Source of the DNA: Deltaproteobacteria bacterium
GTDB taxonomy: Bacteria; Desulfobacterota; Syntrophorhabdia; Syntrophorhabdales; Syntrophorhabdaceae
Assembly: GCA_029777945.1 (NCBI GenBank)
Contig: JAKORG010000004.1
Coordinates: 1 to 64,000 of the forward strand
Direction: 5' to 3'
Length of the DNA stretch: 64,000 bases
Shown here: positions 53,865 through 61,372 of the stretch, one piece after another
How positions within the stretch are numbered: position 1 is the first letter of the stretch
Layout of the letters: every line of letters starts with the position of its first letter
The notes under the pieces: generated by a model
Database searches by the model: none
Told to the model about the DNA's origin: nothing
The model's input: only the letters and a program-made list of their open reading frames with translations
Translations under genes and position numbers: made by a program

Positions 53865-54593
53865 TTACCCTCCAGGGATTTTCATCTTAAAGTTTCCATG
53901 GCAGCCAAGGCAGTAAACTGTTGATGCCTTGTGGCTGTGGTGGCAGACAGTGCATGCTATGTCTCCAAGATGCGATTTGTGGGGATTCCTGTCAGGAAAG
54001 TCCTTTGGTTCACTTCTTTTCTGCAGGTCCTCAAGGGGGCCATGACAAATAAGGCAACGGTCGTTTTCTACTGTATCCCCTGTTAAAGGCAGTTTTTTAT
54101 CATGACATGAACTACACATAATATCAACCTTACTGTGGGTGGCATCTATGTTCTTTGACTGTGCCCATGATATGAATATGTTTTTTATGTTTTCTAATTC
54201 ATCCTTTTTTAACCTGCCAAAAGAGACTCCAGATTTATAGAGACCGAATCTATTGTTGGCGTGGGTATGACAAATCATGCAGTCAGCACCCTTTCCTTCT
54301 TTTATATGTGCCCTATGGATAGTACTTGCATATGGTTTTGGCTCTGCCTTTATGGACATATCAGGTCTATGACATGTATTACACGATGCTATAGTGTCAC
54401 CAGTTACAGGTTTGTGATTCTTTGGAAGGACATTTGATATCTTATCGTGACAGCTAAGGCAGGAGACATTTTTAGAAGGTGCCTTTGCCTTTTGTTTTTT
54501 TGCCTGGGCAAAAACATCCCCTTTTGTAAAAGCCAATGTAATAGCAAATAAAATCACAAAAATAAAACTAAATAACAATAAAGGCTTTTTCAT
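53865..54593 (-). CDS. Periplasmic seven-heme c-type cytochrome
   Basis: 242 residues with a signal peptide (first ~30 residues). Seven C-x-x-C-H heme sites are present: CLSCH, CNTCH, CMICH, CSSCH, CLICH, CTVCH and CLGCH, plus scattered His residues for the sixth ligands, as in multiheme cytochromes that feed flavocytochrome reductases. It is 53 bp downstream of the Tat-exported flavoprotein gene and beyond a hairpin terminator, so it is probably the electron donor to that flavoprotein in the periplasm but made at a lower level. The family cannot be narrowed beyond the NapC/NrfH-independent small multiheme group. Confidence 0.88.
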   Translation of the reverse strand: MKKPLLLFSFIFVILFAITLAFTKGDVFAQAKKQKAKAPSKNVSCLSCHDKISNVLPKNHKPVTGDTIASCNTCHRPDMSIKAEPKPYASTIHRAHIKEGKGADCMICHTHANNRFGLYKSGVSFGRLKKDELENIKNIFISWAQSKNIDATHSKVDIMCSSCHDKKLPLTGDTVENDRCLICHGPLEDLQKRSEPKDFPDRNPHKSHLGDIACTVCHHSHKASTVYCLGCHGNFKMKIPGG

Positions 54594-54646: not shown

Positions 54647-56200
54647 TTATGCCTTTTCCTGGGCTGCATTGATACCGGCTATACGGCCGTGAACAACACA
54701 GTCGGGAATTGCATTACTGCCAAGCCTGTTTGAACCGTGGACACCCCCTGTTACCTCACCTGCTGCATAGAATTTCGGTATCACCTTGCCCCATATGTCT
54801 ATTACCTGCGCCTTCTCGTTTATCCTTATACCGCCCATGGTGTGATGGACTGCAGGCCACTGGGCCACTGCATAAAAAGGACCTTTTTCAAGGGGTATCA
54901 TTGCCTTTGTAATAGGTTTATTAAAATCAGGGTCTTTTCCGTCTTTTAGATACTGATTGTGTTTTTTTACTGTCTCCACAAGGTTATTTACAGGCATTTT
55001 TAGTTTTTGTGCAAGCTCTTCTATTGTGTTAGCCTTTATAAAACGACCCTTTGCAATGCCTTTTTCTATCTCCTCCATGGTTCCGCCCATCTTTGTTACC
55101 ATTTCTTCATTAAAAATGGAATAGGTAGGCTTCTGACCTAATTTAATCTGCGCCATGGAACAGACATCCCTTCTTTCAAGTTCATTTACAAACCTCTTAC
55201 CGTTTTTGTCAACATATATAAGACCATATCCCACGCCGTTGAATGGATAGACAGCAGGGTTATCAAGGATACCGGTTTCTGGTTCTGCAAAGGGATATAA
55301 TTGTATAAAGGCCATATGAAGGGTATCAGCACCTATGGCCTGGGCAAACCTGATGCACTCACCCGTTGCACCGGGGTGGTTTGTGCTGTTATATTCTGGC
55401 ACAACAGATGGATTAAATGCCTGACGCATCTTGATGTCCCTGCTAAAACCACCTGATGCCAGAACTAATGCCTTTTTTATCTTTATGTTTCTTTTTCCTT
55501 TTGGTGTCTTTACCTCAACGCCTAAGATAGGCCCTTCTGTATCCTTTCTCCAAATCCATGTAATCTCATTATTTAGTCTTATCTTGGCACCGTATTTCTC
55601 GGCAATCTTTCTAAGTGGTTCTGTAAAGCCCCTGCCAACACCTTCTGCAACGGTATGGGTCCTGTATGCACTGTGGCCGCCTGCCCTTGTTAGGGCCTCA
55701 CGGAGTTTACACCCACCTTCTTCTATCATCCAGTTAAGGGCATCTGCTGAACCTTCTGTTAAGTTTTTGACCAGGACAGGTATATTGTAATAATCTCCGC
55801 CTTTTAATGTGTCATCAAAGTGCTGTTTTGGGCTGTCATTACCGAGATTTAATTTTTGCCTCAGATGGAGTTTACTGTCCCATGCTGCATAAACACCACC
55901 ATTTATAATGGAGTTTCCACCGTATGTGGGCATCTTCTCTAATATCACAACCTTGGCGCCCCTTTTGCCTGCCTCACTGGCTGCTGCAAGCCCGGCAAAT
56001 CCTGAACCTACAACTACCACATCAATCTCTTCATCCCATTTTTTTGGCAGGGTTTTCGCTGCAGCTTCAGCATCCTTTTTGGTTAGATCCAGGGCAAGAC
56101 CCGTTGCAGCGGCAAGCATACCTGCACTTACTCCTGCCTTTAGAAAACCCCTACGGGTAATCTTATTTGGCATGTCTTTAATTTCATCCTTTTTTGCCAT
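54647..56200 (-). CDS. Tat-exported flavocytochrome-type fumarate reductase-like flavoprotein
   Basis: 517 residues from the ATG at 56200, chosen because AAGGAGG lies 6 bp upstream and the product begins with a Tat signal (ITRRGFLKAGVSAGMLAAAT). FAD binding: VVVVGSGFAGLAAASEAGKRG and VILEKMPTYGGNS. The substrate domain has the family residues in LGSNAIPDCVVHGRIAG, HHTMGGIRINEKAQV and FYAAGEVTGGVHGSNR. This is the flavin subunit of periplasmic fumarate, urocanate or methacrylate-type reductases; the electron donor is probably the neighbouring cytochrome. The frame continues upstream without a stop to 56566 (see separate entry). A sigma-54 promoter precedes it. Confidence 0.88.
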   Translation of the reverse strand: MAKKDEIKDMPNKITRRGFLKAGVSAGMLAAATGLALDLTKKDAEAAAKTLPKKWDEEIDVVVVGSGFAGLAAASEAGKRGAKVVILEKMPTYGGNSIINGGVYAAWDSKLHLRQKLNLGNDSPKQHFDDTLKGGDYYNIPVLVKNLTEGSADALNWMIEEGGCKLREALTRAGGHSAYRTHTVAEGVGRGFTEPLRKIAEKYGAKIRLNNEITWIWRKDTEGPILGVEVKTPKGKRNIKIKKALVLASGGFSRDIKMRQAFNPSVVPEYNSTNHPGATGECIRFAQAIGADTLHMAFIQLYPFAEPETGILDNPAVYPFNGVGYGLIYVDKNGKRFVNELERRDVCSMAQIKLGQKPTYSIFNEEMVTKMGGTMEEIEKGIAKGRFIKANTIEELAQKLKMPVNNLVETVKKHNQYLKDGKDPDFNKPITKAMIPLEKGPFYAVAQWPAVHHTMGGIRINEKAQVIDIWGKVIPKFYAAGEVTGGVHGSNRLGSNAIPDCVVHGRIAGINAAQEKA

Positions 56201-56566
56201 TGTTTCCTCCTTATTTACATTATTTTTAAAATCTGGGTAGTTTTTTGTATCTTCAGAAGTATCACCTTTGTTATATTCCATATCCCCAATAGTTGTCTCC
56301 TCAACCCACATGGTATGGTTTATGAGGCCAATCCTCTGTAGTCCCTCAATGATATAGTAAGACAGGGGGCTACCTAAAGTGATGTTGATATCTTCTTTCC
56401 AGTAGAGGTGGATGATATAATCCAAAGGAACTAAACTGTTTTTATAGAATTCAAATCTTACAAGACCCCCATATTGTTCTAAATTGTTAAATACGCCATC
56501 GAGAAAAGACTTTAACTCTTTTTCCTTGTTCAAATTTACCCTGACCTTTATGCACTCGAGATACAT
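56201..56566 (-). other. In-frame coding-like extension upstream of the Tat flavoprotein start
   Basis: 122 codons open in the same frame as the flavoprotein, from an ATG at 56566 (MYLECIKVRVNLNKEKEL) to the internal Shine-Dalgarno and ATG at 56200. The composition is coding-like and resembles a small dimeric alpha/beta-barrel domain (KVRVNLNKEKELKSFLDG, YIIHLYWKEDINI), with a polar linker near the end. The ATG at 56566 has no Shine-Dalgarno and lies only about 4 nt from the expected sigma-54 start site. Either two proteins are made from one frame or a stop codon between two genes was lost. The function is unknown. Confidence 0.6.
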
Positions 56567-56580
56567 TTCAATCTTTAATT

Positions 56581-56596
56581 AGCAAATGTTATGCCA
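56581..56596 (-). promoter_or_regulatory. Sigma-54 (-24/-12) promoter of the flavoprotein-cytochrome operon
   Basis: On the minus strand TGGCATAACATTTGCT matches TGGCAYR-N4-TTGCW at every defined position, with the GG and GC dinucleotides at correct spacing. The start site should lie near 56570. The divergent gene encodes a sigma-54-dependent activator, supporting a real promoter. Confidence 0.8.
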
Positions 56597-56644
56597 AATT
56601 TTTTTTCAACAATATTAAAGAGTTACAATGATAAGATGATGAAA

Positions 56645-56682
56645 CTGACAAATTTTACAGAAAAAACTGTTAAATTTTTCAG
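56645..56682. promoter_or_regulatory. Paired 16-bp dyads, candidate activator-binding sites
   Basis: CTGACAAATTTTACAG (56645-56660) and CTGTTAAATTTTTCAG (56667-56682) share CTG-N2-AAATTTT-N-CAG and are each dyad-symmetric; an A6 spacer sets their centres 22 bp apart, two helical turns. They lie 75-112 bp upstream of the sigma-54 start site, ideal for an enhancer-binding activator, and just ahead of the activator's own gene. Confidence 0.65.
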
Positions 56683-56702
56683 TTTAATTGTATATCTATT
56701 AT

Positions 56703-58262
56703 ATGTTGCAGGGCTTAAATATAGATAAAGGGCACTTTTTTAGAGAACTGACCATCAGGATATGTAGTAGCCTCGATATAGCAAAGGCGCTTCACAGTTG
56801 TTTTTTGTTTTTAAAGGATATCATGCCCGTTGAAAAACTTGTCCTTATTACCTATGAAAGTAAGATTGGCACCATAAACATAGAGGCTATAGCTGATTAT
56901 GAAAAAGGATACAGCAGGGATATAAAGGTCCCCATCCCAACACAACTCCAGCATGAACTTGAGATAGTAAAGGATCTTCAAAGGATAAGGTACATAAAAG
57001 ATATATCTAAAGACCCATTTATTTTTGGTATTGCAGACATACTTGGTTTTATAGATTTACAGGCAATTGTTACCCATTTTATCCTTGAAGGAAGATATAT
57101 GGGTGCATTTATAATAGTTTTAAAAACCCCTATTCAAGATTTTACTAATTATCTGGAATTATTAGAGTCCATTAATGAACCTGTAGCAATAGCATTAAAT
57201 AATTGCAAGCAATTCAAAGAGCTGTTAATGCTAAAGGATGCCTTATCAGAAGAGAGAAACTACCTCAGAAACGAATTGAAAAAGGCAGCTAAAATCGAAT
57301 TAATAGGGGCAGATTTTGGGCTAAGAAAGGTAATGGAGAGGGTAAATCAGGTGGCGCGCCTTACGAGCCCTGTTTTAATTTACGGTGAGACAGGCACAGG
57401 AAAGGAGATTATATCCCAAATCATACACAACCTCTCTCCAAGGTCAGACGGTCCGTTTATTAAATTAAACTGCGGTGCCATACCTGATACACTTATAGAC
57501 AGTGAGCTCTTTGGCCATGAGAAAGGTGCATTCACAGGGGCAATATCGCAGAAAAAGGGCAGATTTGAAAGGGCAGACAAGGGCACAATCTTTCTTGATG
57601 AGATAAGTGAGTTGCCTCCAAACGCCCAGGTAAGGTTGCTTAGAGTCTTGCAGGAAAAGGAGTTTGAGAGGGTAGGGGGCACGCACCCTATAAAAGTCGA
57701 TGTAAGGATAATATCTGCTACAAATAGAGACCTCAATGAGCTTGTTAAAAAAGGTTTATTTAGAGAAGACCTATATTTTAGATTAAATGTCTTCCCTATC
57801 CACATCCCACCCCTTAGAGAGAGAAAGGGTGATATACCAGCACTCGTTCATCATTTTATAGTGAAAAAATTCAAAGAGATGGCCCTTCCAGATATACCTG
57901 TCTTAGAAAAGGGTGCTATAGAGACACTTTTAGAATACGATTGGCCTGGAAATGTAAGGGAATTAGAAAATGTTGTAGAAAGGGCAATAATACTATCCAA
58001 GGGTAGACCCATTGATTTTAAAGATATATTAAAGACAGGCAGTGAATCAAAGAAACAACTATCTGATTTTAATGCAAACATATTTCCAACCCTTGAAGAA
58101 GTAGAAAAAGAACACATAATAACGGCACTAAAGGCAGCAAAGGGCAAAGTGGAGGGCAAAGATGGTGCAGCAAATCTTCTTGGTATAAATCCAGGTACAT
58201 TAAGACACAGGATGAGAAAGCTCTCAATCCCCTTTGGTAGAAAGGCGCCTAATCAGGAGTAA
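56703..58262 (+). CDS. Sigma-54-dependent transcriptional activator with GAF domain
   Basis: 519 residues from the ATG at 56703 (a TTG at 56688 is also in frame; neither has a clear Shine-Dalgarno). The N-terminal ~190 residues form a GAF-like sensor, with no receiver domain. The AAA+ core has Walker A GETGTGKE (~228), the sigma-54 loop GAFTGA (~276), Walker B GTIFLDEISELPP and the arginine-finger region. The C-terminal Fis-type helix-turn-helix is GAANLLGINPGTLRHRMRKL. A small-molecule ligand is therefore likely to control it directly. It is divergent from the flavoprotein gene, whose sigma-54 promoter and paired dyads lie in between. Confidence 0.93.
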   Translation: MLQGLNIDKGHFFRELTIRICSSLDIAKALHSCFLFLKDIMPVEKLVLITYESKIGTINIEAIADYEKGYSRDIKVPIPTQLQHELEIVKDLQRIRYIKDISKDPFIFGIADILGFIDLQAIVTHFILEGRYMGAFIIVLKTPIQDFTNYLELLESINEPVAIALNNCKQFKELLMLKDALSEERNYLRNELKKAAKIELIGADFGLRKVMERVNQVARLTSPVLIYGETGTGKEIISQIIHNLSPRSDGPFIKLNCGAIPDTLIDSELFGHEKGAFTGAISQKKGRFERADKGTIFLDEISELPPNAQVRLLRVLQEKEFERVGGTHPIKVDVRIISATNRDLNELVKKGLFREDLYFRLNVFPIHIPPLRERKGDIPALVHHFIVKKFKEMALPDIPVLEKGAIETLLEYDWPGNVRELENVVERAIILSKGRPIDFKDILKTGSESKKQLSDFNANIFPTLEEVEKEHIITALKAAKGKVEGKDGAANLLGINPGTLRHRMRKLSIPFGRKAPNQE

Positions 58263-58570: not shown

Positions 58571-61372
58571 ATGAAAAATAGAATACCAGGCCATATTAAT
58601 GAACTCATTTTAGATAATGTTAGATTCGGGTTGTCTCTTATAACCCCTGATGGTAGATTAATTGCTATAAATAAAACCCTTGCAAAGATATTTCGGTTTG
58701 AATCTCCCCAAGAGATGGTTGATTCCATTAAATCCATAGACAATGATTCGTATTTTGACCCTGAAGAAATTAAAACATGTTTGAAACTTATAGGGGAAAA
58801 AGGCAAATTAGATAATTTCAAATTAAAGGCAAAAAGGAAAGACAAAACCTTGTGTTGGCTTTCTGTAAATTCAAGGGCTATAAGAGATGAAAAGGAAAAG
58901 GCCATCTATATTGTAAGCACCTTTGAAAAGATTGAAGATTTGATAAGTGTTGAGAAAAAAGACGGAATAAACGATTTAATATATCAAATTTTACTCGATT
59001 TATATCAGATGTTAGGTGAACCCCTTGAAAAGATTATATCCTTTGTTGCTGAAAAATGTATGGATATTACAGAAAGTAAGACTGCATACATTGGTTTTAT
59101 CAATGAAGATGGTTTTTTAAAACACATCGTATTGCTTCCAAAGGATACATGCAGGCAGTGCAATGTGAAAGAAAGAATATCTGGACTTAATATAAAAACA
59201 GGTGGGTTATGGGCAGAGGCGGCAAGAAAAAAGCAATCATTCATTATAAACGATTATGACTCACCGGATTTATCAAAGAGAGGCATGCCTGAAGGTCATA
59301 TAAGGATAAAGAGATTTATGAGCATTCCTGTTGTATACAGGGATAGGGTTGTACTACTGGGATGTTTTGCAAATAAGGAAGAGCCTTATGATGAAAAAGA
59401 CGAAGCCCATGCAAGACTTTTGATGCAAGGTCTTTGGAACTTTTTTGAAATGGAAAATATGCAGAAAAACCTCCGGGAGAGTGAATTGCGATACAGGAGC
59501 CTTTTTGAGAATGCAAATGATGGCATCTTTCTTTTAAAAGAAGATAGATTCATTGACTGCAATTCAAAGGCGCTTGAGATTTTTAAATGTAAAAAAGAGG
59601 ATATTATTGGAAAAACACCTTATGAATTTTCTCCTCCCAAACAGCCAGATGGTAAAAATTCAAATGAGAAGGCAATTGAAAAGATTAAGGAGGCATTAAA
59701 AGGAAATCCCCAATACTTTGAATGGGTCCATAGAACCTTTGACGGAGAGGATTTTTATACAGAGGTAAGTTTAAACGCTTTAAAAATAGGCAAAGAAACT
59801 TTTGTTCAGGCAATAGTAAGGGATATAACAGAGCGTAAAAAAGCCGAGACACAGCTTATGTATGAAAGGGAGAGATATTCTTTCCTCGTAGACAGGGTGC
59901 CCTACGGGATGGTTCTCATAGACGAAACAGGAAAGTTTTTATATGTAAACAAGGAATGGGTAGCGCTTTTTGGTTATACCCTGGATGAGATACCAGATGG
60001 AATATCTTGGTTAAAAAAGGCATACCCTGATGATGATTACAGAAAGATGGTTATAGAGACCTGGAAACAAGATATGAAAGACATCCAGATAGGTAAAAAG
60101 GTTCCAAGGATATTTAATGTGACATGTAAAGACGGAAGCATTAAGGTTATTAATTTCAATACGGTACTTGTGGAATACAATCTAATAATAACCACTGCAT
60201 TTGATATAACTGACTATAAACGAACGGAAGAGCAGTTTTTACAGGCCCAGAAGATGGAGGCAATAGGACGTCTTGCCGGTGGTGTTGCCCATGACTTCAA
60301 CAATATGCTCACAGTTATACTGGGCCATGCAAATCTCGGTATGCTCGAGTTAGACCTTGGCCATCCATTATATCAGAGGTTCAAAGAGATAAAAAAGGCT
60401 GGTGAGCGTTCCTCTGAACTTACAAAGAACCTTCTTGCCTTTGCAAGGAAACAGACCATTGACCCCAAGGTGCTAAATTTAAATAGTGCTATTAAAGATA
60501 TGCTAAAGATGCTTATGCGGTTAATAGGTGAAAACATAGAACTAAAATGGATACCAGGAAAAGACCTGTGGCAGACAAAGTTTGACCCTGTTCAGCTTAC
60601 CCAGGTGGTGATGAATCTTGTAGTCAATGCAAAGGATGCAATCGCCGATGTGGGCAGGATCACAATAGAAACCAAAAATATAATATTAGACGAAGCTTAT
60701 TGCAAGAATCATTTAGGCTTTTATCCTGGCGAATATGTAATGCTTGCCATAAGTGACAATGGCATTGGTATGACAAAGGACATTTTGGAACATATATTTG
60801 AACCCTTTTATACTACAAAGGAGAAAGAAAAGGGTTCTGGCCTCGGTTTATCCACTGTTTACGGTATTGTGAAGCAGAATAACGGATTTATAAATGCATA
60901 CAGCGAACCTAAAAAGGGCACCACATTTAAGATTTATCTGCCCCGTTATGTAGGGAAAGAAGAGGTGCATATTATAGCAGAAACAGAGGCATATCCTCAA
61001 AGTAAAGGGGAGACAATCCTTATTGTGGAAGATGAAAAAGATGTGCTCGAACTATGCGTATCCATGCTTGAAGAATTGGGATATAGGGTTATATCAGCCT
61101 CAACCCCTTTTGAGGCCATAAATAAGTTTAAAATGCACAAGGATGAAATAGACTTACTGATAACAGATGTGATTATGCCGGAGATGAACGGTAAAGAGCT
61201 TTCAAAGATGTTATTAAGCATCAAGCCTGACCTTAAATGCATTTTCATGTCAGGATATACGAATAATGCCATCATTCACAATGGTATAATTGAGAGCGGG
61301 ATAAGCTATCTCCAGAAACCTTTTACGCTCCACGAGTTATCCTCAAAGGTTAGAGAGACCATAGAAAAATAA
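58571..61372 (+). CDS. PAS-GAF-PAS-PAS hybrid histidine kinase with receiver domain
   Basis: 933 residues, no membrane segment, so a cytoplasmic sensor. Order: PAS (~8-110), GAF (~135-300, with TCRQCNVKERISGL carrying a C-x2-C pair), PAS (~308-425), PAS (~435-555), HisKA with His in GGVAHDFNN (~572), HATPase (NLVVNAKDAI, ISDNGIGMT, GSGLGLSTVYGIVKQ) and receiver with Asp in LITDVIMPEMNG (~862). The kinase-receiver half closely resembles that of the CHASE8 kinase at 13009. No response regulator with an output domain is adjacent; the sigma-54 activator upstream has no receiver, so a direct phosphorelay to it is not evident. Confidence 0.9.
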   Translation: MKNRIPGHINELILDNVRFGLSLITPDGRLIAINKTLAKIFRFESPQEMVDSIKSIDNDSYFDPEEIKTCLKLIGEKGKLDNFKLKAKRKDKTLCWLSVNSRAIRDEKEKAIYIVSTFEKIEDLISVEKKDGINDLIYQILLDLYQMLGEPLEKIISFVAEKCMDITESKTAYIGFINEDGFLKHIVLLPKDTCRQCNVKERISGLNIKTGGLWAEAARKKQSFIINDYDSPDLSKRGMPEGHIRIKRFMSIPVVYRDRVVLLGCFANKEEPYDEKDEAHARLLMQGLWNFFEMENMQKNLRESELRYRSLFENANDGIFLLKEDRFIDCNSKALEIFKCKKEDIIGKTPYEFSPPKQPDGKNSNEKAIEKIKEALKGNPQYFEWVHRTFDGEDFYTEVSLNALKIGKETFVQAIVRDITERKKAETQLMYERERYSFLVDRVPYGMVLIDETGKFLYVNKEWVALFGYTLDEIPDGISWLKKAYPDDDYRKMVIETWKQDMKDIQIGKKVPRIFNVTCKDGSIKVINFNTVLVEYNLIITTAFDITDYKRTEEQFLQAQKMEAIGRLAGGVAHDFNNMLTVILGHANLGMLELDLGHPLYQRFKEIKKAGERSSELTKNLLAFARKQTIDPKVLNLNSAIKDMLKMLMRLIGENIELKWIPGKDLWQTKFDPVQLTQVVMNLVVNAKDAIADVGRITIETKNIILDEAYCKNHLGFYPGEYVMLAISDNGIGMTKDILEHIFEPFYTTKEKEKGSGLGLSTVYGIVKQNNGFINAYSEPKKGTTFKIYLPRYVGKEEVHIIAETEAYPQSKGETILIVEDEKDVLELCVSMLEELGYRVISASTPFEAINKFKMHKDEIDLLITDVIMPEMNGKELSKMLLSIKPDLKCIFMSGYTNNAIIHNGIIESGISYLQKPFTLHELSSKVRETIEK

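Follow-up and report, generated by a model that had tools for sequence, protein, structure and literature searches.

The region between a GAF-type sigma-54 activator gene and a divergent flavoprotein operon probably constitutes a one-target, NorR-like sigma-54 switch, in which three activator dimers would form a hexamer, fire the operon and repress the activator gene. Within about 140 bp, the region holds a −24/−12 promoter and an array of 16-bp dyads (S1, S2 and S3), the spacing of which recurs in related genomes. The window (the whole 64,000-nt stretch of DNA analyzed) belongs to a genome of 2.4 Mb in 102 contigs with Syntrophorhabdaceae MAGs as nearest relatives; the host is an anaerobe and probably syntrophic. 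Coordinates are collected in Table 1.

Table 1 Features of the divergent region and its flanking genes (window coordinates).
Feature	Position	Strand	Basis or remark
Multihaem c-type cytochrome	53865..54593	-	PF14537, PF14522; Mrd-Mcc-like gene order
Tat-dependent flavocytochrome-c-type flavoprotein (fumarate/urocanate/methacrylate reductase superfamily)	54647..56200	-	TIGR01813
ABM-like (dimeric alpha/beta barrel) domain and disordered linker, 121 aa	56204..56566	-	N-terminal part of 639-aa ORF
Internal Shine-Dalgarno AAGGAGG	56206..56212	-	before internal ATG 56198-56200
Predicted sigma-54 transcription start	56569..56571, ~56570	-	placed from the −12 position
Sigma-54 −24/−12 promoter TGGCATAACATTTGCT	56581..56596	-	genome-wide count against control; same place in relatives
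Putative operator S1 CTGACAAATTTTACAG	56645..56660	.	centre 70 bp upstream of −12 C
Putative operator S2 CTGTTAAATTTTTCAG	56667..56682	.	22 bp from S1; left half is putative activator −35
Putative activator −35 CTGTTA	56667-56672	+	coincides with S2 left half
Putative activator sigma-70 −10 TATATC	56691..56696	+	18 bp after CTGTTA; TATAAC in relatives
Putative, degenerate operator S3 CTATTATATGTTGCAG	56696..56711	.	29 bp from S2, over activator start codon; same position in L062-L064
GAF - AAA+ (GAFTGA) - Fis-type HTH sigma-54 activator	56703..58262	+	profile matches, fold, translation

Promoter and dyads in the window

The perfect match to TGGCAYR-N4-TTGCW claimed in an earlier note on this DNA is present on the minus strand as TGGCATA-ACAT-TTGCT. 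Across the 2.4-Mb genome the pattern was matched 18 times, compared to 0 times for a reversed-pattern control, and many of these matches lie directly 5′ of recognizable genes, among them genes for flagella and nitrogen metabolism, as judged from translations. The GG and GC elements of the box, together with RpoN encoded in the host genome, mark it as a predicted sigma-54-dependent promoter. A chance origin of the box, with transcription of the operon from a different promoter, is hardly credible: the few strict matches among the 18 that fall within ORFs would favor such an explanation, whereas the empty control argues against it, as does the persistence of the box at the corresponding place in almost every orthologous region although the flanks have diverged.

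Two 16-bp CTG-N10-CAG dyads offset by 22 bp were found as had been described. S1 and S2 are each 6/8 palindromic and are identical to each other at 13 of 16 positions. Relative to the predicted start at ~56570, their centres would lie at approximately −83 (S1) and −105 (S2). A genome-wide search for CTGNNAAATTTTNCAG returned S1 and S2 as the sole two matches, so the pair occurs once, and a genome scan for the dyad pair allowing up to three mismatches found no further targets of the activator. No dyad pairs within 40 bp of each other appeared in 60 simulated 64-kb Markov windows.

The two sites thus stood, while the count of two did not: relatives add a third, degenerate dyad, S3, most of which lies beyond 56567-56702, the interval covered by the earlier note. 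S3 is clearly weaker than S1 and S2 in the window, and the three-site score there exceeds that of shuffles only moderately (z ~3); the S3 call rests on relatives.

Conserved spacing across relatives

In three close relatives (L062/L043, L063/L042 and L064/L044), both dyads were found at 22-bp spacing and at equal distance to the activator, with the promoter kept; dyad spacing and promoter position are unchanged throughout the four closest genomes. S3 lies at exactly +29 from S2 in all four nearest genomes (4/4) and reappears at +28/29 in five further loci (L080, L131, L088, L129 and L132), where the site is strong or even nearly identical. In most Syntrophorhabdus-type loci it takes the form of a 16-bp CTATCG(C/T)ATACGATAG palindrome. 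These occurrences weigh against the explanation that only S1 and S2 are operators, with two bound dimers, a hexamer completed from solution in an NtrC-like manner, and S3 a chance or vestigial similarity. The weakness of S3 in the window beside the closely matching S1 and S2, and the activator start codon inside it, are what such an explanation would expect, and we regard it as unlikely.

The three-site reading was assessed by a triple scan in which 16-bp dyads were scored, each of the two spacings was allowed to vary between 17 and 40 bp, and the best-scoring triple was taken. The best triple fell at 21-23 / 28-29 bp in 24 of 28 activator/ABM regions, and in 41 of 76 activator-family loci compared to 2 of 276 random stretches of those loci and 3 of 380 shuffles; about half of the family loci were without the exact triple. 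Among 42 triple-bearing loci, 35 had a sigma-54 score of at least 13, and in 27 of these 35 the S1 centre was 70-75 bp from the −12 C. Triple and S1-to-−12 distance occurred jointly in 27/76 loci but in 0/380 shuffled regions. The recurring array is therefore S1-22-S2-28/29-S3, with S1 ~72 bp from the −12 element, in agreement with the earlier claim that the dyads sit at an activating distance. It was found in Syntrophorhabdaceae, Desulfobacterales and an Ignavibacteria MAG, although the independent lineages number fewer than 27, given that approximately nine of the loci come from closely related, Syntrophorhabdus-type genomes. Since the scoring scheme was built after the first loci had been inspected, the family-wide counts and their controls carry the argument, not individual z-scores. 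In a group of loci without an adjacent ABM gene (L066-L071, L082, L085, L086 and L090), two good outer dyads often stood ~50 bp from each other and the site between them was weak or shifted, an arrangement that is possibly a variant of the three-site array.

With the spacing fixed, the operator letters vary widely (CTG..CAG, TTGTC..GACAA, TTGCG..CGCAA and TTGTT..AACAA). Operator divergence correlated with that of the activator (r = 0.46 for the HTH and 0.57 for the rest of the protein), with partial correlations of 0.24 and 0.45, respectively. Co-variation of HTH and operator was consequently set aside as proof of binding, being weak once overall divergence is allowed for. That the operator follows the HTH no better than the rest of the activator could be taken to mean that another regulator binds the dyads. 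We consider this very improbable, as the array tracks the activator family across classes and changing cargo genes, the length and symmetry of the dyads suit a Fis-type HTH dimer, and the activator is the sole member of its GAF family found in the genome. The adjacent activator is thus the likely protein bound at S1-S3.

Activation from sigma-54 enhancers is, by the textbook, flexible in position, and the enhancer of NtrC can work even at a distance of kilobases. The geometry seen here stays near base-exact across great evolutionary distance as the letters of the binding sites drift, a pattern that points towards a phased assembly. With less than even confidence, we put forward a more specific idea: that the array is a rigid, one-piece enhancer, fixed across classes while operators and cargo change, whose phased assembly would both fire the target and shut the activator gene, and in which the co-conserved ABM-like protein would partner the GAF domain, either in ligand handling or in feedback.

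The activator and the divergent operon

The activator was matched by PF00158 (sigma-54 AAA+ domain, E = 5e-72), PF25601 (lid) and PF02954 (Fis-type HTH), and its translation contains GAFTGA, which places it among NtrC/NorR-class EBPs. Pfam gave no match for the N-terminal 195 residues themselves. GAF_2 was matched in 5 of 13 aligned family members, and the AlphaFold2 model of this part (pLDDT 86) matches GAF structures, including the sigma-54 regulator domain 3k2n. The profile matches in relatives and the predicted fold support its assignment as a GAF domain, as the earlier note had proposed for the divergent activator. Just downstream, at 58571-61372 (+), lies a gene for a hybrid PAS/GAF histidine kinase with a receiver domain.

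Upstream of the activator, the putative −35 and −10 elements are weak matches. Two relatives (L063 and L064) carry CTGTCA-N18-TATAAC where the window has CTGTTA-N18-TATATC, and the offset of the −10 from S3 is constant in most Syntrophorhabdaceae loci. S2 overlaps the putative −35 and S3 the −10/start, so binding should shut the activator promoter. Conservation in relatives backs the autoregulation suggested earlier, which we hold to be likely. The predicted activator transcription start is the A of the ATG at 56703, where there is no Shine-Dalgarno sequence; a match of at least 4/6 was present at 35 of 51 long ORFs in the window. On the other side, the predicted sigma-54 start precedes the ABM start codon by ~4 nt in the window and 2-4 nt in the four genomes with a fused gene. 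Because the predicted starts lie so close to the start codons (2-4 nt for ABM and 0 nt for the activator), both divergent messages may be near-leaderless.

The promoter had been described as driving a flavoprotein. A predicted sigma-54 promoter does stand there; the ORF behind it starts with an ABM-like domain, which is joined in frame to the flavoprotein, and a multihaem cytochrome follows. The divergent ORF (54647-56566, minus strand) encodes 639 aa from the ATG at 56566, and the ABM-like domain occupies its first ~92 residues. The AF2 core of this domain (pLDDT >90) adopts a ferredoxin-like alpha/beta dimeric-barrel fold and retrieved LsrG with Foldseek (E = 7.9e-7). The ABM model PF03992 gave matches in 2 of 13 members (best E = 8.7e-5) and none for the window protein.

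The flavoprotein scored 435 bits with TIGR01813 (cut-off 285), and its best solved relative is urocanate reductase. An Fcc3-type fumarate reductase was rejected, as the substrate-binding His (Fcc3 His364/365) is replaced by Tyr (QLYPF), as in urocanate reductase. Judging from gene content and order, the multihaem cytochrome is the likely electron donor of the flavoprotein. The linker between ABM-like domain and flavoprotein is unconserved in sequence; its frame is open in 4/4 fused genomes (two genera), and the Shine-Dalgarno sequence before the internal ATG is likewise kept in 4/4. A naive independence estimate of ~1e-6 for open linker plus Shine-Dalgarno is overstated because the four genomes share ancestry. 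The simplest reading suggests two products from the ORF, a fused form and a Tat-exported flavoprotein.

The ABM-like gene adjoins the divergent activator in approximately thirty fetched loci, with a sigma-54 box 5′ of it in nearly all, and is fused to a flavoprotein in only four genomes. Elsewhere it mostly stands alone, followed by varying genes (functions judged by eye from sequence starts). In Syntrophorhabdus-type loci L048-L058, Rex- and NuoE/NuoF-like electron-transfer genes (again by eye) follow the ABM gene in place of the flavocytochrome. In the bacterium PL23a_bin.76 MAG (L114), the ABM-like domain lies inside a 497-codon stop-free frame, possibly a second, independent extension of the domain.

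Proposed working and comparison with known systems

In the working that we propose, three GAF-AAA+-HTH activator dimers would occupy S1, S2 and S3. Since three dimers amount to one AAA+ hexamer, six protomers would be brought together. The GAF domain would sense a signal and the hexamer would contact the sigma-54 polymerase waiting ~72 bp away, upon which the promoter would fire the ABM-flavoprotein-cytochrome operon, with a periplasmic reductase as the presumed output. Activator on S2 would cover its own −35 and on S3 its own −10/start, so that its level would stay low. The spacing rule offers a means of predicting operators and targets for many uncharacterized activators in syntrophic and in sulfate-reducing bacteria, and the ABM-like protein is flagged as an unstudied, frequent companion of the activator family. 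Literature searches on sigma-54 with flavocytochrome c, or on ABM-type monooxygenases with sigma-54 in syntrophs, returned nothing relevant.

The closest parallel is NorR/norVW of E. coli. Both systems combine a one-component GAF-AAA+-HTH activator, a divergent operon and a sigma-54 promoter, read here from sequence. Three inverted-repeat sites lie between the genes in norVW (PMC2941729, PMC1274295), as do three dyads in the present region, and in both the outer site adjoins the regulator start. NorR, itself of the GAF type, requires all three sites, which scaffold its oligomer/hexamer (PMC2941729). In the E. coli sequence itself, we measured 75 bp from the nearest NorR site to the −12, and spacings of 21 and 24 bp between the sites. 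The systems differ in spacing (24/21 for NorR and 22/28-29 here), in operator (GTCA-N3-TGAC-like compared to CTG-N10-CAG) and in cargo. The activator was rejected as a NorR: it scored 330 bits with the NorR equivalog model (cut-off 476), and most positions of the non-haem iron ligands of the NorR GAF domain, which we take to be D99, H111, C113 and D131, hold other residues in an approximate alignment of distant GAF domains. With the score below cut-off and most of these ligands missing, the present system appears NorR-like in its working yet is not NorR.

Other systems share parts of the arrangement. In the Desulfovibrio sigma-54 regulome, the closest published account from this broad group, one-component activators are divergent from their targets and most sites are within 100 nt; DVU3142/ohcBAC and other one-component EBPs there share an EBP gene divergent from the sigma-54 promoter of a periplasmic cytochrome system, while the ohcBAC operon differs from the present one, and a fixed three-site geometry or an ABM partner was not found in the available part of that account (PMC4641369). 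In GcsR/gcs2 of P. aeruginosa, likewise, a sigma-54 promoter is preceded by three palindromic EBP sites in tandem, with a TyrR-like regulator and different input domain and cargo (PMC4894688). The Mrd-Mcc methacrylate system of Geobacter sulfurreducens AM-1 shares a Tat-exported flavoprotein followed by a separate multihaem cytochrome, and the flavoprotein has 526 aa there and 517 aa in the window when counted from its internal ATG; the available part of its description, unlike the present locus, features no ABM domain (PMC4427408). The type of circuit is thus known, and what is new is that the three sites of the enhancer keep a conserved, rigid spacing and go together with a GAF activator family and an ABM-like companion.
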